Below are positions 24,574 through 60,200 of a stretch of DNA of 64,000 nt, piece after piece. Location: NCBI RefSeq assembly GCF_036711975.1, contig NC_091968.1, positions 25,653,001 to 25,717,000 on the forward strand. Reading direction: 5' to 3'. Each line of letters opens with the position of its first letter. Position 1 is the stretch's first letter. This DNA comes from Onthophagus taurus. Taxonomy: Eukaryota; Arthropoda; Insecta; Coleoptera; Scarabaeidae. Below the pieces are notes generated by a model, which saw only the letters and a list, made by a program, of their open reading frames with translations, was not told where the DNA came from and searched no databases. Made by a program: the position numbers and the translations under genes.

Positions 24574-25094
24574 ATGGCACTCAGGCAAGTTTTTAGAAGC
24601 TCTTTACCCAAATTAACTCGTAATTTCGACCTAACCTCAAATTTATCAATTACAAGAATTTTATGCACTACAGCTCCCGTTTTAAATAAAAAAGAGTAAG
24701 TTTTTGATGTGTATTAAACGTATTTATATTTAAATTAGACGAGGTTAATTTTAGAGTAACCGTAACTTTCATAAAAGCAAATGGAGAAAGGATTAATGCT
24801 AAAGGAAAAATTGGTGATTCACTTTTAGATGTTGTGGTAAATAATAACGTGGATTTAGATGGATTTGGAGCGTGTGAGGGGACACTAACATGTTCTACTT
24901 GCCACCTGATTTTTAAGAAAAGTGATTTCGATGAACTTCCTGAAAAACCGAGTGATGAAGAATTAGATATGTTAGATTTAGCTTACGATTTAAGCGACAC
25001 CTCAAGATTGGGTTGCCAGATTATATTAAGTGAGAAATTAGATGGATTGGAGGTTCAAGTACCCGCAACAATAAACGATGTTAGAAGTAGTTAA
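24574..25094 (+). CDS. Fdx1: Mitochondrial [2Fe-2S] ferredoxin, adrenodoxin type
   Basis: Two exons, 24574-24695 and 24755-25094, joined in phase by a 59-bp intron, give 153 residues. Residues 1-35 are basic and hydroxylated ([18 protein letters not shown]), a typical mitochondrial import signal. The iron-sulphur ligands are Cys81, Cys87, Cys90 and Cys128 ([10 protein letters not shown], then SRLGCQI). [19 protein letters not shown] and [11 protein letters not shown] match vertebrate FDX1 and insect Fdx1 better than FDX2. The protein carries electrons from ferredoxin reductase to mitochondrial P450s (ecdysteroid synthesis in insects) and to iron-sulphur/heme and lipoylation enzymes. The Cys90-Cys128 spacing is 37, one longer than the 36 usual in FDX1. 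Its stop codon lies 135 bp from the convergent SEPSECS stop. Confidence 0.95.
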
Positions 25095-25229: not shown

Positions 25230-28200
25230 TTATTTATTATTTTGTTTTAAAAGTAACATTTCTTTATCTAATTTGGTTACAAAACCGTCGATATCTTGTT
25301 GCGTTACGCCCAAACCTGCCGCACAAGCTATGTAAGGAAAATTACATTCATTAGAGTGCGATCCCCAACCTAAAATGATAAAAAATTATTTATTATTGTT
25401 AAAAAATTTTTTTTAATTCGGAGGAGTAGAATGAAAAGTTACGTTTACACAGTGTCATTTTTCAAAGCTATTTTTGGCGGGAGTTTTAAAACCAGAGAGG
25501 ATTTTAAGTACAGTGTGTTAATTAATTATCGTACACGATGACATCATTGCAAGTATGCAACCCAATACGCAAATCGCGTATTGCAATACCCATACTGTGA
25601 TTTTGGTTGCATACTTGCAATGATGACGTCGGTACGATAATCAATTAACACACTGTATGTAAACTGTAGCTACGAATTTAATTACTTATTTGTTTAAACG
25701 TAATAAAAATTAGGGCGTACCTACTTACTGCGTATAGATGCAAAACTGTATATATAATTTTCCAAGAAATACGATATTTAGGTCAGTTCCAAACAAAACT
25801 CAGCATTTAATATAAAAACACCTTTAAAGTTTAGTGTTGGATGCAAAATTCGCTATTTGTGTTGATAGTTTAGATGCAAAATTAGCTATTTGCTTTACTA
25901 ATTGACAGAAAATGCAAATAGCAGGGTAAGATTTACTTGAACAAGACCTATTAAAAGAATTATTATGTTTTTCAAATAGACACCGTCCAAAACAGTTACC
26001 TACGTTTTCTACCTGTGGCCATAATGGCAAGCCGGGATTCCCCCACTTCTATACTACTTTGAGAATGAATCAAATAAAGCGGTTTAACGATCTTCTTTAC
26101 TTATCAACACATAAGATTAAACAGGACACTTATTCTTACATGTTGTAATGGAAAACCTGCTAAACGACCTAATACTGTGAACCTCAACAGAAACACTACT
26201 GTTTATTTGCTACAATATTCCAGATGGTGATGGTGGTTTTATACGTGTTTGTAAAGAAGCATTTTTAGAGATTTCCGGAATAAGTAGTTATAGGATAGAA
26301 TATACAGGGTGATTCTCAATCTACACGCATAAACTTGAGGATTTATTCCTCATGACAAATAATGACTAATTGGTGAAAAAAATGTTAGCAAGTTTTTTAA
26401 TTTCCTAGATATCCTTGAAATTAACTTTCGAATTAAGAAGAGACTGCCCAAGTCTGACGTCACAGAGGTGGGCGGAGCTTATACTGACTCCAAACAATTT
26501 CGTTGCTAAGATAAATCGCCAAAAACTGTCATTTGAAATGTCATCACTTAGTTTATTTTATTTTAACACTAATGGAAAATTGCATATGGTGATTTACCGT
26601 TAGCAACGAAAATGTTTGGAGTCAGTATAAGCTCCGCCCATCTCTGTGACGTCAAGGCTTAGGTTGTCTATACACAGAAATTACTTGAAACTGTTGTTTA
26701 AGTACGCTTGTGTCATTGTGATATTTAAACTGTGTTTAAATTTTGTCACAATTTCGGGGAATCCCGGAAATATTCTGTACTTGCGGCTCGTCTCTATGCA
26801 GAATGGTTTCCAGAGAGGTATAATCCGGCACTCTATCTCTTTTACGATTTGGAGAAACTATTACCTGCTTGGAAAGACAAGATACTGTGTCCAAAAGACT
26901 ATTAACTACTTTCAGAATGGTAAATATTGTTGGAAAGACTACTAACTACTTGGAGAAAGCTAGATACTGCTGCCAACACACTACTAAGTGCTTAGAGATT
27001 ACAATACTACTGGCTGAAAACTATTTATTGAAACTATTCTTCTGTTGAGTGATATCTTTATGTGTCCCTTCCATTACAGATTTAAAAATTGCTGCTTCAA
27101 CACTCGATTCTTTGTCACCCAGATGCGACATATCTTTTTATAGGAGGGTTGGACAATCGCATCCATCTAATTTACTGATTTATTTCATAACTTTGTGTAG
27201 AAATTCCACTTTGAGTTAGGTTAATTAACATTTAAACTAGTGCGAATTTCTCAAATGTCGGGTTGGGCATGGAGGAGAGGATGGGTTGTAAATTCCAGGT
27301 TGGGTTAGCTATGCGTCTTCAGATAGAGATTACATTAAACCCGATACTCTCTAGTTCTATGGTTAGTTCTAGTTTTGCACTAGAACCGGGTGAATACGGT
27401 TGTTCGACACACAACGACTCAAATGTCGTTGTTTACCATCTATAAACTAAAGATAACCTAAAATCATTAACTTATTGATTCCTGAATGCTAGATACTCTT
27501 GGCAAAAGACTAATTATTGCTATCAGAAGATTAAATACTGCTGGTATAAGACTAAAAACTGCTTGGAAAGAGAAAATACTATTTCAAAAAGTTACCTACT
27601 GCTTCTAAAATGCTAGATACTGCAGAAAAAGATCACAAATTACTTGGAAAAGACTAAATACTGTTTTCAAAATAATACCTATTGCTTCCAGAACGCTAAA
27701 CACTGCTGTTAAAGGTTTTGACCTAGTTGGACAGGCGGAATACTGGTTTCAAGACTACTTACTGCTTTCAAAGACTTTAATAATTGTTTGGAAAAGAGAT
27801 ATCCTTTCCAGAAAGCTACCTGCTACTTCCAGATTGTTAGATACTGCTTGGAAAGAAAAGATATGCTTCCTAAAAAGCTACCTAATGCTGCCAAAATGCT
27901 AACTATTACTGGAAAAGACTAATAACTACTTGGAAAGTAGAGAGATTTTCTCAAAAAAAGGTACCTACTGCTTCGAAAATGCTAGATACTGGTGGAAAAG
28001 ATTACAATCTGCTTGGAGACGACTAGATAGTGCTAACAAACAACTACAAACTCATTGGAAAGACGAGATACTACTTCCATAAGACTACTTACTGTTTTCA
28101 GAGCGCTATATACTGCTAGAAAAGATTACGACCTGCATGAAGGAGAGTAAATATTACTGGGGGAAACTATTATCTGCTTGGAAAGACAAGATACTTTGTC

Positions 28201-31167
28201 CAAAAGACTATTAACTACTTTCAGAATGCTAAATATTGTTGGAAAGACTACTAATTGCTTGGAGAAAGCTAGATATTGTTGGCAAAGATTATTTAATGCC
28301 TTCAGAAGAATATATATTGCTGGCAAAACACTACTAAGTGCTTGGAGACTATCACTATCATTAGAACTAACACTAGACCTAGAACTAGAAACATTCGAGT
28401 TTACTCATCAGAAGATTTTTAGAGATCGATATTTTCGTAACGAAATCAATGAACATTTCTGCGTATCACATGTTAATTTGGAAATTTTCGGGTCCGCGAT
28501 TTTTCTTATATCGCAAGTTAAGTGAAAAAAGTACCCGATTTTTGAAAGTGCCAGCAACTTTGTCTACTTTACGATTTTTTTTTCTCCAAAACTATTTGAC
28601 GAAAAAATTTCAAATTTGAACTGGTGGTAAACCGATGTGTTCTTAATGTGGGGCATATTTTATTTTTTCGATATTCCATATAGTTTCGCGGAAAATTGCG
28701 GTTTTAGTAGGATGCGATTATTTCGAAAACGACTTGGCGGATTTCAACGCGGTTTTTATCAAAATATGTTGGTTGTCGAATTCCGTTATCAGTTTTTCAA
28801 AATTAAGGTTCCCTAATTTTTTAAGAGCGATTTAATGGAATTACAAATTAAAGAAAAACAGAAATTCCTTCCAATCGGAACAGATGGTGTGTCCCAGACA
28901 GTACGTCGCGCCTTTATCTTACCTACATAAAGAAATAAGGCGCGACATCCGTCGTCATCTCTAAAGTGAGGGGCCTTGGCTTTTTGCACTTTTTGGATAG
29001 TAGTGTAATTTTTGCTTAAAACTGACCAATAGCAATCCTTCTTTTTGGCGCTTCAATTTAAAAACACTCCTCCGAATTAAAAAATAAAATTACAAATTAA
29101 AATTTACCTTGAAATTTGAATCCACAAATTATTTTAACATCTGATGTAACAACTTTAGCCCCAAATACGTTTTTGAGGAATAACGATGATCCTAAACGAA
29201 CTCGATCTTTCGAATTAATAGTTGTTAAAGTCATTGCTTCAAAAAGACATTATTAATATCGCAAAAATGATGTAAAAAATACTTACCGATCGATATCGGA
29301 TTTGAAGTGTCACAAACTTCTTCGCCGTGTTTTAAAGCTAAATTAATTAGTTTTTCTTTTAAATAATTATACATAATCTCTCTGTTATCGATGAGATTTA
29401 AAAAACCCTTTTTACCCATTTCCATTAAAGTAATAAAAATGTCTTGTATTAAAAACGGTGGAGTTTTTTGAGATATACACTTAATTGTGTTATGAAAATT
29501 GGGGTTAAACGATACTAAAATAGAACCTCCAACGGGAATCAACAAATTTTTATCGGTACTTTGAACAAAAACATCTATATTGCCTTTCCTAAAATCAAAA
29601 ATAATAAAAATAACCTAAATTTTTTTGGAATTTTTGTAATTACAATTTTCCTCGATTTATTCTTTTCATTAAAATTTTACTTCCCAATCCATAAGCATTA
29701 TTAACTATGTGAAACAAATCATATTTTTTACAAATTATAGAAATTGATTCGATATCATCACAATTTCTTGGCGCAAAACATGAAGTTGTTGAAGCGATAC
29801 AAACAATGTTGTGAGTTCCAATTTCAATAATTTTTTCTTCAAGAAGATTTAGGTTTGTTACAAAATTATTATTTATTTTCGTTGTGTCGATAATAATCGG
29901 TACTAATCCAGCTGTATTAATCGCTTTAAAACATGATTTTTGATCGATTCTCGACCACAAAATGTACTTAGCCTTTGGTTTTAATTTATGGCAAGTTAAA
30001 AAAGTTAAAGTTAAGCTCATTCCGGTTGCTACAGGTAATATTATTGAATTAAATTTATGTTGAATACCCATTATTTTAAATAAATCATCGATTAAATTAG
30101 TTGTTATTAATTGTAACGAATCGTTTTCGATTTCAGATAAAAAGTGTTGAATTAAATTTATGTTCCATGAATTTTCAGGAATTTTTTTATGAATTAGGAG
30201 ATTTTTAAACATATTTTTTCGGGTATTTAATCCATCAAAGCCTTTTTTTAGGAATAAATCCGGAATTAATCCATAAAAATCATCTTTTTCAAAGAAATTT
30301 GTGGGATTATTTTTAGTAATCAACCCAATTTTTCCTTTAGAAAGTAACGCAATAAAAACAGATATTGTTGAGGTTATTGTAGCCCGTCCTGGATACATTT
30401 TTGAAAATTTTTCAATCAATTTTATATCATATGAGCATAAAATGGAAGCTTCTGGTGGAATTATTAAGTTATTATCTTTAAAGATGATTAAATGAGGATT
30501 CTCAATTTTAAAATCCTTAAAAATTCCGCACTCAGCGTTTACAACAATTATAGGAACCAAATTTTTTATCTTATTTAACAAATTAATAGATTCATAATCA
30601 ATTAAAACACATAAAGGTTTATCCACACTTTCTAAATCATTTTTTGAGTCAATCAAAATTAATTCAAACCCCATCTTTTCAACAAAATCATAACATTGTT
30701 TATCAACACCATAATACAACACTTTTTTAACATTACCAATGCTATTAAATGTTAATAAACAATTTAATAATGTTAATTGTGGCGATAATGGTACTAAAAT
30801 AGAATGGATACCATCAAACCCAGATATTTCCATAAATTCGTTTATTAATAAGTTTGTGATTTTATATAATAAGCTAGATCCAGGAGCTTTTGGTTGGCTT
30901 TCGTTTAAATCTCCTGATCTCCCAATACCATGGGTGAAATAATAATTTCGTTTTGCTACTAAATTTGAGAAGCAACGACCTTCTCTTTCTCCAATGCTAC
31001 TTTTTATTGGATAATTGTTACTATCCATTGATGAAAGAGAATAAAGGAAACGTTCTATTTGTAATAAATCAATTGGATTATCAACAAGCTTTTTCTAAAA
31101 AAAATTAAAATTAAATTAATTTTTAATCAACATTTTCTCTTTATACCTTTTTTATAACAATTTCCAT
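25230..31167 (-). CDS. SEPSECS: Fused double SepSecS, Sec-tRNA synthase-like
   Basis: Five minus-strand exons: 31167-31147, 31094-29644, 29588-29287, 29236-29108, 25369-25230. Phases agree and there are no stops; the product is 680 residues against about 500 in other animals. SepSecS converts O-phosphoseryl-tRNA(Sec) to selenocysteinyl-tRNA with PLP. Half A (about 20-265) starts at the MDSNN motif and keeps GEREGR, the phosphate loop GIGRSGD (Arg66, Gln74) and KMYPGRA (Arg244). At the PLP-lysine position it has Asn215 (DNN), and it has lost the RIDQKS and STTSCFAPR loops. Half B (about 280-680) starts at the N-terminal helix (IPDLFLKKG, PENSW), lacks about 60 residues holding MDSNN through the phosphate loop, then keeps ATGMSLTL, RIDQKSCFKA, ASTTSCFAPR, IVNNAYG and QSTDKN (Lys504). 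In place of KMYPGRA it has a shortened QKTPPF. The arginine spacing in half A (29 residues after the Lys position) equals that in human SEPSECS (284 to 313, from memory). Losses are complementary. Confidence 0.9.
25511..25665. repeat. Inverted repeat, about 55-bp arms
   Basis: TACAGTGTGTTAATTAATTA with TCGTACACGATGACATCATT and GCAAGTATGCAACC on the left is mirrored by GGTTGCATACTTGCAATGAT, GACGTCGGTACGATAATCAA and TTAACACACTGTA on the right. Arms are about 90 percent complementary. It is a foldback MITE nested in the larger TTAA element. Confidence 0.85.
26312..26745. mobile_element. CAGGGTG-ended MITE carrying an inner foldback
   Basis: It starts ATACAGGGTGATTCTCAATC. The block GAGGATTTATTCCTCATGAC and ACAAATAATGACTAATTGGTG recurs at 63.8 kb, as does ACTGTTGTTTAAGTACGCTT at the right side (26691 and 63921). 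Between these lies an insertion with inverted arms GACGTCACAGAGGTGGGCGG plus AGCTTATACTGACTCCAAAC (26456-26495) and their mirror (26614-26654). The 63.7-kb copy lacks this insertion, so the foldback is a later, nested event. Confidence 0.8.
26790..28350. repeat. Decayed minisatellite, about 30-35 bp unit
   Basis: Dozens of diverged copies built on CTAGATACTGCTGGAAAAGA, CTAATAACTGCTTGGAAAG and CTACCTACTGCTTCCA occur across about 1.4 kb. A block of about 150 bp (GGAAACTATTACCTGCTTGG, AAGACAAGATACTGTGTCC and so on) is nearly repeated at 26851-26995 and 28163-28350, enclosing the array. One copy of the CTAGTTCTAG hairpin lies at about 27350 and another at about 28360. No coding function; the open frames crossing it are by-products of the repeat. 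Confidence 0.75.
28400..29060. other. Intronic, transposon-derived, no gene
   Basis: Part of the 3.66-kb TTAA element. A small foldback with arms GTCGCGCCTTTAT and ATAAGGCGCGAC lies at about 28907-28950. Nothing else is recognised. Confidence 0.45.
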
Positions 31168-49857: not shown

Positions 49858-52800
49858 ATAAAAATTAATTATTTTTGATTATTAAATCATAACCTAAAAA
49901 TTATTTTTATTAATCCTAAGTAATATAAATCAGGTATTTGCATGATATAGTACTAAAATCAATTTTTATTTATTTTTTTAATTAGGTGGAGTAACTCGTT
50001 TAACCGAATCTGGACTTTCCATGGTAACTTGGAGGTTATTAGGTGAAAAGATGCCTCGGAATGAACAAGAATGGATTGATGAATTTGAAAAATATCAACA
50101 ATACCCCGAATTTAAAATGTAAATTAACCTAAATTGTTTTTTAATTTATTTATTTAATAATTTTTTTAGAAAAAACAAAGATATCACATTATCCGATTTT
50201 AAATTTATTTGGTACATGGAATTTACTCATCGTATGTGGGGAAGAGCAATAGGAGCAATATTTTTATTTCCCGCTGCATATTTTTGGTCGAAAGGTTACT
50301 TTTCTGGCCCAATGAAGTTTCGCGTTCTTTGTTTTGGCGGATTAATAGCTGCTCAAGGTTTAATGGGATGGTACATGGTTAAATCAGGATTAGAAGATCG
50401 TTTTCATTCCCAAAGCGACGTTCCAAGAGTATCACAATACCGTTTAGCAGCACATTTAAGTTTAGCACTTATTTTATATACTTTGTTCGCCTGGTCGGCT
50501 TTGGATCATTTATTACCGGCAAAAACGATAACGTTTAATTCAAAAGAAGTTTTAATCGCCGCTAGGAAGTTTAGAATGTTTGCTCATTCTTGTAAAGGAA
50601 TGGTGTTTTTAACGGCGTTGTCGGGGGCTTTTGTGGCCGGATTAGATGCTGGATTGGTGTACAATTCGTTCCCAAAAATGGCTGATAAATGGATTCCTGA
50701 TGATTTATTAGTTTATGAACCAAAAATGACGAATGTTACTGAAAATCCGACTACGGTGCAATTTAATCATCGAATATTAGGGACCACAACTGTCAGTTTA
50801 ATCAGTATTTTATGGGTTATGTCAAAGAAGAGGATTTTACCCCCTCGAGCTTATAACGCTGTTAATGCTTTAGTTGTAATCGCTTGGCTTCAGGTAATTT
50901 TTTTAATTGTTTAAAACTTTAATTAACCCATTAGTGCATAGTTTAATTTAAAGTCCCTAGATTTACAAAGTACCGCGGTTTGCCGCCATTTTGGCTCGAA
51001 AGTCAAGCGGGAAATTTAAAACTATGTCGTTCTATTGATAACATTACCCCAAAATTCCTTTCTTTTTTCTCGTGGTACTCTTAAGAGTCGAAAGCCCTTC
51101 TTCTTACTGCTATTTTTGCAACTCCAAAGGTAACAGGACGGCAATATTTTTGTAAATAAGCGGTGAGATGCAGTGACAAGTTGTCAAACCGCCATTTTGG
51201 CTCGAATACAGGCGTCATGAACCGCGGTACTTTGTAAATCTAGGGACTTTAGTTTAATTCATTGATAATTGGCGCCACCTGCCAATTACTTGCGCGCTGC
51301 ATTTGTTACTCAAATGTCATATAATAAAAAAATGGCGATTTGTGTGGTTTTGGTGCCATGGAATTTGAACAACATAATAAACGCAGCAACAGGTATGTAT
51401 AATATGGATAATGATCATGTAAACATATACATTACGCTACCTGATGACCAAGGAGCCGAAACGGAAGAGGATTTATCGAAAGGCATACTAAACCAACAAT
51501 GTGATGTTGAGTTTCATGAATCTGATGACGATTTTGATGAGAAAGATCTTCTACCACTTACATATTCCCTCTTCAACATCAAAATCATCAAAAGCGCCAA
51601 AAGAAGAGTAATTGGCGTGAAGATACTACATACTCCATTGTGTTCTTGCAACATCTCATGCGACCCCAGGAAACATTCCAAAGAAGCCGACCACGGAGAA
51701 AATCAATTGGATTATTATAAATTATTTTTGTAACAAACATATACGCCCAGCAAGAAAACAATAAACTCAACAATAATTGTATGTTACTATCTGGATATGG
51801 CAAATACCCGAATAAACGAATGATGTGGAAGAGTCAAGGTGATGTGCCAACAATTCTACGAAACATTCTTCAAAACTTAATGAAAACGTTAAAAAACATG
51901 GTGGACTGGAAGAAAACATATCCATAGATGAAAGGTAAACCTGTGAGATTTGGATTTAAAAATTGGTCTCTATATGCAAGTGAAGGATATACAGGGTGGT
52001 TCAGTTTTTAAGCGGAAATTTTACTAGGACGTAGTATTTGCCAAAATAACACATGTTTTTTATACAGGGTGAGTCAGAAAGAATGGGAAATCCGAATACC
52101 GGAGACACTAGACACCAAAATATGACGATTTAACCTAAGATGTCTTATACAAAAGTCGGTGGTTTTTAATACACAGGTTGTTGAAAGTTAAATTTTTATT
52201 TCGAAATTTCTTGATAATTTTGAAGGTTTTTGTACTATTAACATAAAATTTGGTAGTTAGATGTTTTCGAGCATGAGAAATACGAATTTGATATTTGTTT
52301 TGTGATTACTCGTAGAGGGCGCTAGATGCACACTGTACGTTTGAGATATCAAGTCATGACTATTTTATCAGTTGAGGTATAGTGAATGGGGTCATACACG
52401 ATTTTTTTTTTATTATATTTTCTGAAAGTTTATATAAAAATATAGTTACCGTTATTTTTCTTTTTTTTATTTTCGAACAAAGTCATTGTTAAAAAAATTA
52501 TTGAAAATTTATATACCCATTTGCGCTTTTAAAATTCCCGCGTTGATGACGTACGATTCTCGCTTTTGCGTCCCCTGCTCCCCGCTCAAATGCGAGAAAG
52601 AGATGAACGTCATTTAGGTTGTATTGAAAAGAGATAGAGTGTTTGTAGGTTATGTTTATTATGTTTTGTTCATGGATGTAATAGAGACACTCTATTACAT
52701 CCATGGTTTTATTTTGACACTGTCACACCGCAAGCGCTATCTAACGGATAATTTAACTTGTTTTAGGCAGTGCGGTTCCTACGTCACAGAAAAGCCGCGA

Positions 52801-55800: not shown

Positions 55801-57212
55801 CAGGGCGCTCTACCGGCAGCATGTTATAATTATTATAATTATATATTATATTTCGCGGCCTCCTCCAATGCTATGTGACAATCCATTACTAGTGCAGACG
55901 TTATCATTACTCTACTTAAAGCGAAAACAGATTGTCTACTGTCTGTAAAAATAATAAAATATTTACCTCGCTTGTTGGAATCAAAATGCAGTCAGCAGCA
56001 AGTTTAATAGCGGCCAATTCTGCTTGTATGATGATGGTACTTGTCCCTAAAGTTTCCGAGAGGCAAATCTGAGGATCGTGAGAAAAGATCCCAGCGCCTG
56101 CACCATTCCGTCTTTTTGAACCATCAGTGTAGATCTTGAAGGTTCTGTATGTATCTACTACTGTGGGACTGTTGTAGGTGAGGAAAGTAGGTCTTATAGA
56201 GCCTTAGAGCAGTCCGAAATGGTAACAAGCTATAATAAAGGAATGGGTGGGGTGAATAAATTAGATGAACTTGTTGCAGTATACAGAACACGAATGAGAC
56301 TTAGAAAGTGGTACTGGCCAATGTTTTCATTTCTGTTAGATACTTCAGTTGTTAATGGGTGGCTCCTTATGAAGAAATTGAACCCTAATAATATAAACTG
56401 TTTTTCATTACTGGTATTTCGGCGATACATAGAACTCAGCTTATTAACATCATATGGCTTTGGGGAGCGAAGAGGGAAAACTACTGTATCTGAGCCATTG
56501 CTAGCAATCCGTTATGATAACATTGGTTATTTGATTCGCTTCTCTGAGACAGATCGACGATGTAAACATTGTACAAAAAAGTCAAATTTTATGTGTATAA
56601 AGTGTGTTATTGGCCTATATCCTAAATACTGTTTTGAACGATATCATTCTAAAAAATACTAAAAGTATTTTATTATATTATTCTATATTTTTTTATTATT
56701 ATTTTATTTATATTATTCATATTTTTTATTTATTCCTATATTAATTAATTTTCGTAAAAAGAACATGACGTTTCATAAAATTGACATTTAATTTTGACAA
56801 ATTGTTGTGAAGTTAGTTACGGTTGGTAATATTGAATTTGTGTCACATTGACGTTTAACTTTATTCAAAAATGTATTTAAAAAGTAAATTTATGGAATCA
56901 ATTTCAACAGTAGTCATGGACAAAGTATAATATTGTACTCACATATAATGAGCTATAAGGTTAAGTTTATGTCAAAAGCGTAGTGAGTGGCATAATTAAT
57001 AATGCTCGTATAATATATTATTTTGATCAAAAGAATAATTTTATGCACTAGTGAGTTAAGTAATTATTTCTTTTTAGGTCGCTTTGGGAATTTCAACTTT
57101 ATTAACTTACGTTCCAACAAGTTTAGCGGCGAGTCATCAAAGTGGATCATTAATTTTATTATCAACGGCTGTTTGGTTGACGCACGAATTAAAAAAGTTA
57201 CCGAAAGTGTAA
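49462..57212 (+). CDS. COX15: COX15, heme A synthase
   Basis: Exons 49462-49590, 49645-49777, 49986-50118, 50170-50893 and 57078-57212, in consistent phase, give 417 residues. The basic N-terminus ([18 protein letters not shown]) is a mitochondrial presequence. The conserved core begins [21 protein letters not shown], then [16 protein letters not shown]. Four heme-linked histidine motifs are present in family order: [29 protein letters not shown] and [10 protein letters not shown], in a protein with about eight membrane helices. It oxidises the methyl group of heme O to form heme A for cytochrome c oxidase in the inner membrane. The last 44 residues are separated by a 6.2-kb intron full of nested transposons. 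The stop is 78 bp from the convergent ALDH16A1 stop. Confidence 0.96.
50949..51251. mobile_element. 303-bp hAT-type MITE with 8-bp target duplication
   Basis: Terminal inverted repeats of 32 bp start TAAAGTCCCTAGATTTACAA and continue AGTACCGCGGTT. The right end is the exact complement. GTTTAATT flanks both ends (50941-50948 and 51252-51259). An 8-bp duplication is typical of hAT elements. A further inner repeat, GCCATTTTGGCTCGAA, is in direct orientation near 50988 and 51192. Non-coding and well preserved, so recent. Confidence 0.9.
52061..53835. mobile_element. 1.77-kb element with inverted repeats of about 280 bp
   Basis: Left TATACAGGGTGAGTCAGAAA, then GAATGGGAAATCCGAATACC, matches the complement of the right end, TTTCTGACTCACCCTGTATA. 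Complementarity continues through AGACACCAAAATATGA, the TTCAAAATTATCAAGAAATT region and CTCGTAGAGGGCGCTAGATG (left about 52312, right about 53557). Inner foldbacks occur too: CTCTATTACATCCATG around 52690, and GGTACTCTTGTTTACATTGT at 53000 against its mirror at 53430-53463. No coding sequence recognised. Confidence 0.88.
53845..54850. mobile_element. 1-kb foldback with arms of about 180-200 bp
   Basis: Left arm with AAAAATTTACATTTTATCTT, GGTAAACCGTAGAATTTGAA, ACTACTGGTTAATACCTTAT and AAACTTCCCTAGCGCCCTCT (53882-54020) is mirrored by AGGGGGCGCTAGGGAAGTTT and the following sequence at 54646-54782. A second pair around GGAATATTAACATAAAAAAA (54070) and its mirror (54587) continues toward the centre at about 54330. 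It abuts the 1.77-kb element on its right. Confidence 0.85.
55400..56217 (-). mobile_element. LINE fragment with RNase H domain
   Basis: The minus strand at about 56165-55925 gives [40 protein letters not shown] and [19 protein letters not shown]. The YTDGS and QAELxAI motifs identify the RNase H domain of an I/R1-type LINE. The downstream part (55900-55400) is probably its 3' end. It interrupts the piggyBac transposase just before the SYNKGMGG motif. Confidence 0.85.
56663..57077. other. End of COX15 last intron, no gene
   Basis: AT-rich sequence between the piggyBac C-terminus and COX15 exon 5, with no supported feature. Confidence 0.4.
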
Positions 57213-57290: not shown

Positions 57291-60200
57291 TTAAAAAGAA
57301 TCTCCGACATCAACCCAAACATTCTTTTTAATGGTACATCTGCGTATTATAAACTTATATAAATCGCCGCTTTTATAATCGTACATTTTTTGTGTAAGAA
57401 AACTTCTAGGAACTGGTTTTTCCCCGCCGATTACAACAACGGATTGTTTTAAACTTTCCAATGCGAGTTCTGACGATGAAACACTTCCAAAAACGCCCAA
57501 AGGTAAATTTTTAATTAATTCCGTAATGAAATTGTTATTATTTTCGACGATTAAAACAGAATTTCCAAGTAATAAGGCCCCTAAAACTAAATCAGGCACG
57601 GTTTTATCCGACTTATTAATAATTACAACTCCAATTGGGTCGCGATAACTCTTCAAATCAAAGTTATCAATAATTTGGGATGTATTAATAGTATCCAGGT
57701 TATTAACCGCTTTATAAAAGGAGCTCATCCATTCGGAATTATTACGAACAATCTTAAAAATTTTCTCCGCTCGTGATTTAAACGGCAATTTATTCCATGA
57801 ATCTTGAGCTTTTTTTGATTGTGATAAAATTTGTGATGAAGTTTTTTGATTTTGGGTGGTTTTAACTTCAATTAATTCGTTAAATTCGTAATAACCTAAA
57901 AATTAATTAATAATTAATTTGTGGCGAAAATCAGTGAAAATTTACCTTCATAACCACCAAAATAACCAATCCCTTCATATTTTCTCGTTGTAAATCCCAC
58001 ACTACCTTTAATAACACCATGGCAGTTAACCCAAATCGTTCCGACATCAATTTTTCGTACAACTTCATTAATTAAACTAATATTTTGGGACCATAATGAA
58101 ACCGCGAGACCTTGTCGGTTATTATTAGCTAAATTAATCGCTTCTTTTGGTGTTCGGAACGCTAAAATAGTTCCTACTGTTGGTTGGATGTTTATTTCTG
58201 ACATGATTTTATTCCCCGAAACTTTTCCGCCGATAAATAATGTTGGAACTATTAATTTGGTGTTATTGGTTTCTTTGGCTTTAAAAATTTCGATTCCTTG
58301 CGATTTCGCTTCTTTTTCCATTTTGTCAAGATTTCCTTTAAAATCGTCTGAGTAAAAGAAGGAGATATCGTCTGAATTCGTTGAAAACTCATTCAACTCT
58401 AATTTTTTTAATCGAATTTTTAATTTGTCACTAAATTTTTTCACAATATCCTCTTGAACCAATAATGTATCGATTGACCATGGTAACTACATCAAAAAAT
58501 TAAACAAAATTAAATCATCATTTTTAAATTATCCATACCAATCCGCATGAACCCCAAATTGCTTTAACAGCCGTTTCGACAGCTGAATCAAGATCGGAAT
58601 CGTTAAAAATAATCATGGATCCTTTTAAATTAGGGGTTATTAAAACTTTTTTATCGTTGAATTCTTCAATATCGTCAATTTTTATGTTTTTTTGGATTTG
58701 TTTAGAACATAATTGTTGTAAATCGTTACTTTTAGTGCAAATGAAATTGATAGTTTCTTCAGGAATTCTAAAAAAATGCAATTAATTTTTATTTTTTAAT
58801 CATATCATTTATTACCCGGCTTTAATTGAAAGGTCAATTAAATAATTTAAAAACCAAGAATCCTGATTGCCAGTAAATATTATATTACGCCCCCCAGCAA
58901 GTGTTGAACCCAGCACATAACCTAATTCCGCTAATGAAATTTCATATTTTGTATCAATACAACAAAGTACGACATTTTCATCGTTTACTTCATCTACATG
59001 TTGGTCCTCGATTAAAGTGGAATAATATTGTAGATAATTATTTAATTGTTCCAAACCGATTTTGGTGTCTTTTGGCAAAACTCTTCGTAACGCATACTTA
59101 AATTGGCATAAAATGTCAGTGTTTGATTCGATTTCTTTAGAAAATTGATAAAGACATTCGGTTTTTTTAGGATTGGAAAAATTTTTCCATTCCGTATTCT
59201 CTTTAATTTTTTCAAACGTTTTCTTTAAATCGTCGTATTCCGTTACAAAATAATTGGTGTCAACAAGCCATTTCTGTAACATTTTTAATATGATTTAAAT
59301 TGATTATGGTATAATTCACGTTCTAGGTCTAATGTTAGTTCTAGTGACATGTTGCATATTTTTATTGTACTAAAACTAGAACGAGAACTAGAAATATTCG
59401 GGTGAAAAAAACTTTCAGTTGTCAATATGAACTTTAATTTTATTATTATTATTATTCGTAATCTTCGTAAAATAACCTTTGAGAGTCCAAACATAACGCA
59501 TATTTGTCAACTCCATAAAAAATCTTTTAAAATGAGTCCAAACTCGACATATTTAACTTTGATATTAATGGAGATACAATCACTTCCGGTTAGAAACGTC
59601 AACGTCAATTTTGACATATTTGTCATCTTCATTAAAAGACCTTTAAAATGAGCCCAAACATGATGCACTTATCTCAAAAAACAAAAAAGTTAGAATAAAA
59701 AATATTAAACCCGAAGTTAGCAACAATGAAGATAGCAATTTAATTTTTAAATATTAATACCAACCTTAATTTTTGATTTTTTTCATTATATTTATGTTTT
59801 TGTGACAAATATTAAGACGTTTTATAAAAATTAAGAATATGTCAAAATGACATTGACATTTCAAATCGGACGTTGCTTATATCTCGAGTAATATTGGAAT
59901 TAAACGTATCATGTTTGAACTCATTTTAAAGGATTTTCCACGGCGATTACAAATATGTCAAAATTGACGTTGACATTCTTAACCGGAAGTTGTACCTAAC
60001 TTCATTAATATTGTAGATAAATATGTCGTGTTTGTACTCATTTTAAAGGATTTTTAATGAAGATTACAAATATGTCAAAATTGAGGTTGACATTTTAAAC
60101 CTGAAGTTAGTTATCATATAATAGACAAATTGACGACTTCATGGTGTTCTTTCATGATGTATTCTTTATTAAAAACACCTTTAAAATGAGTCTAAAGACG

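Follow-up and report, generated by a model that had tools for sequence, protein, structure and literature searches.

The stretch of DNA analysed here is a 64,000-nucleotide window of the Onthophagus taurus genome (contig NC_091968.1, positions 25,653,001 to 25,717,000), and the gene in question is its SEPSECS gene, whose product is related to O-phosphoseryl-tRNA(Sec):selenocysteinyl-tRNA synthase (SepSecS), a pyridoxal phosphate (PLP) enzyme. Our splice model assembles a frame of 680 codons from five minus-strand exons separated by four introns, all of them GT-AG, and an in-frame TAA sits two codons 5' of the ATG in exon 1 (Table 1). The RefSeq protein of O. taurus, XP_022904184.1, is also 680 amino acids (aa) long and differs from the window protein at three residues (RefSeq to window: N135Y, codon 30711-30713; D159N, 30639-30641; L588P, 29297-29299), the last of which falls in the NPIS motif of the second half of the protein. 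Together, the five-exon model and this record bear out the single open, correctly spliced frame proposed in the preliminary description of this DNA, which had been made from the sequence alone. A Pfam scan of the protein (E up to 0.001) reported a single family, PF05889 (SepSecS), scoring 414.9 bits against a cut-off of 21.1 and matching in two stretches. That the two stretches are separate genes joined by an error of assembly or annotation is extremely unlikely. Within the protein collection searched the fusion is indeed confined to one species, as such an artefact would predict, but the junction lies inside the single open exon 2, so the fusion is independent of splicing, and the RefSeq record, which has sequence differences of its own, carries the same 680-aa fusion.

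The two stretches correspond to two SepSecS-like halves, A and B, that have retained different parts of the enzyme. Half A has the phosphate loop and the KMYPGR motif. Missing from it are helix alpha1, the C-terminal domain, the PLP lysine and the loop STTSCFAPR, along with the equivalents of human residues 1-31 and of nearly everything beyond about residue 333. Half B holds the PLP site, the tRNA-binding helices and the C-terminal domain. The set made up of the SxDKN lysine, NNAYG and STTSCFAPR occurs in half B only, and the set made up of GRSGD...Q and the YPGR arginine occurs in half A only, having been deleted or replaced in half B. All of the motif positions given in the preliminary description (R66, Q74, R244, N215, STTSCFAPR, NNAYG, K504 and QKTPPF) proved accurate, except that the segment with the phosphate loop that half B lacks measures 51 residues (human 60-110) rather than about 60. 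Searching the window by tblastn with six homologues (E up to 1) revealed no lost alpha1 exon 5' of half A, a result that a short diverged exon could escape.

Table 1. Features of the O. taurus SEPSECS gene, in window positions, with human SepSecS numbering in brackets.
Feature	Position	Strand	Basis or remark
SEPSECS gene, fused 680-aa A-B protein	25230..31167	-	splice model, RefSeq match, PF05889
Exon 1, residues 1-7	31147..31167	-	splice model
Exon 2, 1451 nt: most of half A, A/B junction and start of half B, unbroken	29644..31094	-	
Exon 3	29287-29588	-	splice model
Exon 4	29108-29236	-	splice model
Intron 4, 3738 nt, repeat-rich	25370..29107	-	splice model and repeat scan
Exon 5	25230-25369	-	splice model
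Half A, residues about 1-273 (human 32-333)	30297..31167	-	span takes in intron 1
Half B, residues about 275-680 (human about 9-466 minus 60-110)	25230..30293	-	span takes in introns
Arg44, half A (human R75, GEREGR)	30984..30986	-	alignment
Arg66, half A (human R97, phosphate loop; GRSGD starts at 65)	30918..30920	-	alignment
Gln74, half A (human Q105, phosphate loop)	30894..30896	-	alignment
Asn215, half A (KDNN from 213), at the PLP-lysine position (human K284)	30471..30473	-	
Arg244, half A (human R313, KMYPGR 239-244)	30384..30386	-	alignment
STTSCFAPR, half B, residues 442-450	29766..29792	-	
NNAYG, half B, residues 472-476	29688..29702	-	
Lys504, half B (STDKN from 501; human K284, PLP Schiff-base lysine)	29549..29551	-	alignment
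QKTPPF, half B from residue 531, in place of the motif with human R313	29453..29470	-	

The division between the halves extends to the conserved residues as a whole. As reference we used 93 ordinary SepSecS proteins of 440-600 aa, drawn from the 119 others among the best 120 of 1525 matches listed, and took a column within human 36-345 as invariant when it was at least 98% identical across them. Of the 62 invariant columns, 24 are kept in half A only, 28 in half B only and 10 in both; no column is missing from the two halves at once, where 10.8 would be expected (Fisher p 1.4e-9), a split beyond what chance would give. Lowering the threshold to 95% gave 28, 35, 12 and 5 of 80 columns (A only, B only, both, neither; 16.5 expected for neither), and 90% gave 34, 44, 17 and 8 of 103 (21.2 expected). 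As the columns are not independent and the losses come in blocks, one pattern was also moved circularly along the other; none of 61 shifts reached 0 at the 98% threshold, 1 of 79 reached 5 at 95% and 1 of 102 reached 8 at 90%. Realignment with all 224 homologues left the counts at 24, 29, 9 and 0, and in five random subsets of 45 relatives, scored for full invariance, columns lost from both halves numbered 0, 0, 2, 1 and 2 of 61, 59, 62, 64 and 57. Extending the 98% threshold to the full length of the protein gives 72 invariant columns, two of which are lost from both halves, namely R398 and R404, each a lysine in half B. Half A alone has lost 29 of the 62 and half B 24, compared with 0 to 2 in five normal beetle proteins and one further relative; no single domain copy in the fused protein carries all of the invariant SepSecS residues.

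Identity to the consensus alternates along the chain in the same way, with human 61-117 and 304-345 better kept in half A and 118-303 and 346-460 better kept in half B. For half A it is 0.67 over human 61-117, then 0.28, 0.44 and 0.21 over 118-303 and 0.57 over 304-345. For half B, nearly all of 61-117 is deleted, and the values are 0.48, 0.64 and 0.49 over 118-303, 0.32 over 304-345 and 0.51 in the C-terminal domain, which half A lacks almost wholly. One could suppose that half A serves as a pseudo-subunit, structural or regulatory, and that half B uses another phosphate arrangement, by B:B pairing or with another protein, so that no composite site exists. Purely stabilising pseudo-subunits are common in general, and a model of half B alone superposes on mouse SepSecS at 1.2 Å over 387 residues. 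We nevertheless consider this quite improbable: half A holds the equivalents of R75, R97, Q105 and R313 that are missing from half B, as does an A-type protein of Trypoxylus discussed below, and a purely structural pseudo-subunit would not keep its phosphate-loop segment at 0.67 while human 118-303 drops to 0.21-0.44.

Half A is, judging from its codons, under constraint, because it shows no stops and has kept its hydrophobic core beyond what neutral change would leave. In 300 runs of a neutral simulation over its 142 degenerate codons, stops averaged 6.0 against 0 in the real sequence, no run (0/300) was free of stops, and core hydrophobic positions fell to 34.3 +/- 3.1 compared with 49 of 56 in the real half A.

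The rest of the genome has kept genes of the selenocysteine (Sec) trait. A search of the 290.8 Mb assembly for SepSecS, in which introns were not modelled, gave three matches, all of them exons of the fused gene, so that no second, normal SEPSECS locus of the kind the preliminary description had proposed to look for was found. The tRNA-Sec is present, with anticodon TCA and G73 (75.7 bits against a gathering score of 47). There is also a PSTK-like open frame, 254 aa long and containing GLPGAGKT, whose 82.7 bits (E 2.5e-21) fall short of the cut-off of 382 that the family sets for a whole protein. An SPS2 gene has an in-frame TGA (DLRGUGCKVPQE; C8, about 959446-960570), and SPS1, with arginine at the Sec position (DLKGRGCKVPQE), lies at a separate locus (C7, about 8462325-8465909). 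Passages of Santesmasses et al. 2017 (PMC5330540) list O. taurus with a tRNASec, a complete Sec machinery and the selenoproteins SPS2 and SelK. Since the tRNA-Sec, the PSTK-like gene and the TGA-containing SPS2 persist, Sec use is listed in that source and no second SepSecS was found, simple decay following selenoprotein loss, which the preliminary description had also considered less likely, is unlikely. A pseudogene, or drift after Sec loss, was rejected as the leading explanation on account of the sole locus, the complementarity, the simulation and the Sec genes. The same observations bear on a further possibility, that the protein has left Sec synthesis for some different role, in PLP chemistry or with RNA, and that O. 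taurus obtains its Sec by other means. Its unusual architecture and changed tRNA contacts would suit such a move, which is nonetheless very unlikely given that no other SepSecS was found, that the tRNA-Sec, the PSTK-like gene and the SPS2 UGA persist, and that all of the phosphate-handling invariants are kept across the two halves together. The fused gene appears to encode the O-phosphoseryl-tRNA(Sec):selenocysteinyl-tRNA synthase of O. taurus, the sole one found in its genome.

A relative of half A outside Onthophagus provides some insight into the order of events. With half A as query, the first match was Trydic_g1727 of the rhinoceros beetle Trypoxylus dichotomus (P0121), an unfused protein with K284E. 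In this protein STTCSLPQK stands where STTSCFAPR would be and VSDHG where NNAYG would be, yet GEREGR, GRSGD...QPKA and TYPGR are retained. Of the invariants confined to half A it has 23 of 24, against 11 of 29 of those confined to half B (Fisher p 8e-6), and it has 7 of the 9 that the halves share. Its C-terminal domain is present and degenerate (R398S, R404Y, Y433L). Among the 224 homologues, human position 284 has a letter other than lysine in two, E in P0121 and G in the 281-residue fragment P0171, and a gap in 13. No B-type gene of Trypoxylus was among the matches listed (best 120 of 1525; best 120 of 129), no dedicated search having been made. In the tree, half A and the Trypoxylus protein form a clade (98/93), both being long branches in an analysis whose bootstrap had not settled. 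Over 108 slow columns, half A lies nearest to the Trypoxylus sequence, and that sequence lies equally near to half A and to Schistocerca; none of the clades is well supported. With groups named after the tree had been seen, halves A and B as a sole clade were weakly rejected by the approximately unbiased test (p-AU 0.040), and a clade of A, B and Trypoxylus was not rejected (p-AU 0.171).

Onthophagus (Scarabaeinae) and Trypoxylus (Dynastinae) both belong to Scarabaeidae, and a subunit with the phosphate loop and no lysine most likely existed before these subfamilies diverged, with the fusion coming later. Because the A-type protein of Trypoxylus is lysine-less and unfused, loss of the lysine probably came ahead of the fusion. 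Retention of the phosphate set without the lysine in both lineages is the best evolutionary evidence that A acts in trans. Duplication, fusion and mutual degeneration, the reading offered in the preliminary description, therefore remains the best supported; its order needs revision, in that the Trypoxylus protein suggests a division of labour before the fusion.

How could two incomplete halves make one enzyme? In fold-type I PLP enzymes the active site lies between two subunits. In the Methanococcus maripaludis (M. maripaludis) SepSecS of Araiso et al. 2008, three essential arginines reportedly protrude from the neighbouring subunit; we take them to map to human R75, R97 and R313, whose counterparts Arg44, Arg66 and Arg244 of the O. 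taurus protein all belong to half A. Our whole-chain model of the 680-aa protein has a predicted template modelling score (pTM) of 0.84. As modelled, half A superposes on human or mouse SepSecS at about 2.5 Å over 271 residues. We propose that an ancestral homo-oligomeric SEPSECS was duplicated, probably within the scarab lineage, and that copy A would then have lost the PLP lysine and PLP-binding motifs while retaining the arginine/phosphate-loop set, and copy B would have lost the phosphate loop and KMYPGR while retaining PLP, the tRNA helices and the C-terminal domain. In Onthophagus the two would have been joined in one chain, predicted to fold as a pseudo-dimer, in whose single site Lys504-PLP of half B would face Arg44, Arg66, Gln74 and Arg244 of half A, the latter holding the phosphate of phosphoserine and then selenophosphate. 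One full A:B site would form per chain, the other site being doubly dead, and two chains would probably associate as a pseudo-tetramer that has two sites rather than four. We put the probability that duplication, fusion and complementary loss produced such a pseudo-heterodimer, obligate and with a single composite active site in each chain, at roughly 80%.

Human tRNA-Sec, according to passages of PMC10164584 and PMC11602143, is docked by alpha1 and alpha9 of one dimer and has its tip bound by alpha14/alpha15 of the other. In alignment to human numbering, the equivalents of alpha1, alpha9 and alpha14/alpha15 occur only in half B, from which it follows that a pair of fused chains would offer two docking faces along with two sites. 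It is reasonably likely that scarabs made SepSecS heteromeric, with one subunit that has the phosphate loop but no lysine and another that bears the lysine and binds tRNA, and that the Onthophagus fusion hard-wired half-of-the-sites catalysis.

Several observations weigh against the composite-site enzyme. Half B has lysine (Lys613) at human R398, the residue that reads G73 and is arginine in 92/93 relatives, lysine (residue 619) at R404, arginine in 93/93, phenylalanine (residue 553) at Y334, also found in 8/93, and leucine at R271. Because half B differs at residues that the human enzyme uses, its tRNA recognition may be altered or weakened. In the human enzyme R398 and Y334 contact the tRNA or the PLP loop, and the O. 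taurus tRNA-Sec keeps G73. Polar positions of half A have turned hydrophobic in 12 of 50 cases, compared with 13.1 in the neutral simulation, and the end branches of the tree are 3.6 for half A and 1.5 for half B. The five whole-chain models span a mean predicted local distance difference test (pLDDT) of 81.9 to 65.5, and the alignment behind the full model spreads each homologue over both halves, which could bias the packing; the proposed cross-subunit geometry follows fold-family logic. A search with residues 86-300 gave no other fused protein, only the RefSeq record, among 1542 candidates (E up to 1). At the SPS2 locus, Rfam (E up to 10) reported no Sec insertion sequence (SECIS), and a SECIS-like ATGA...stem...TGAT found by hand 267 nt past the last matched exon has a folding energy no lower than that of shuffled sequences (z -0.10), so that it makes no convincing SECIS.

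Some of these points could instead be due to a degenerating gene, in which about two remaining selenoproteins exert weak selection on a barely active enzyme heading for Sec loss, as in other beetles; several such losses in Coleoptera are inferred in PMC5330540. The long branches of both halves, R398K, R404K and Y334F, the three differences from the RefSeq record and the neutral-like drift of polar positions in half A would all be expected of such a gene. Against it stand the absence of any invariant, among 62, lost from both halves, the stop-free half A with its hydrophobic core kept relative to the simulation, the intact tRNA-Sec, PSTK-like frame and SPS2 UGA, and the same A-type pattern in Trypoxylus. 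This makes degeneration improbable, and we retain the pseudo-heterodimer.

Other features of the region can be noted briefly. Intron 4 contains seven diverged direct-repeat families and four inverted pairs, including 55-nt arms (96%) and 32-nt arms (91%), and looks mobile-element-like. A 2Fe-2S ferredoxin exon (Fer2, 23.9 bits; 24708-25094, +) adjoins SEPSECS at its 3' end, in tail-to-tail orientation. Elsewhere the window has a COX15/CtaA exon (50123-50914, +), an IS4-type (DDE_Tnp_1_7) transposase fragment (56120-56662, +) and an aldehyde dehydrogenase exon (57914-58486, -).

Compared with known systems, both halves are homologous to human and mouse SepSecS (PF05889) and together hold all 62 invariants of human 36-345, yet, unlike ordinary SepSecS, the O. 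taurus protein has two unequal halves in one chain and at most one complete site. Half A resembles Trydic_g1727, a lysine-less protein with the phosphate loop whose corresponding motif is TYPGR, but that protein is unfused and keeps a degenerate C-terminal domain. In serine palmitoyltransferase, LCB1/LCB2 form a fold-type I heterodimer in which one subunit is lysine-less yet needed for activity; these are separate chains catalyzing another reaction, unlike the O. taurus fusion. The whole fused model aligns in Foldseek to the glycine decarboxylase (GLDC) P-protein (query-based template modelling score, TMq, 0.56-0.57). Passages of PMC7259800 describe GLDC as a fold-type I enzyme, found either as one long chain or as a heterodimer of alpha and beta, with the lysine only in the C-terminal half. 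Sequence and predicted folds likewise give the O. taurus chain two fold-type I halves, one of them with the PLP lysine, although GLDC has other chemistry, about 1000 residues and no PF05889, and the likeness is one of fold and design.

No earlier report of a fused SEPSECS was seen among the openly licensed PubMed Central papers listed, and the O. taurus protein would be a SepSecS variant in which the dimer has been turned into one asymmetric chain. It looks like a recent replay of the route proposed for GLDC in passages of PMC7259800, namely duplication, complementary loss and fusion, with the unfused lysine-less form surviving in a relative, and it appears to be a natural example of a symmetric enzyme turned into an obligate two-part machine. 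The basis of SEPSECS asymmetry is called poorly understood in a passage of PMC11602143 (see also PMC10164584). If the proposal is true, a dimer of fused chains would have two sites and two tRNA-docking faces, compared with the four sites and at most two tRNAs of human SEPSECS, and the apparent permanent split of PLP and tRNA duties from phosphate duties would be a natural test of the roles of the subunits and of the need for four sites.
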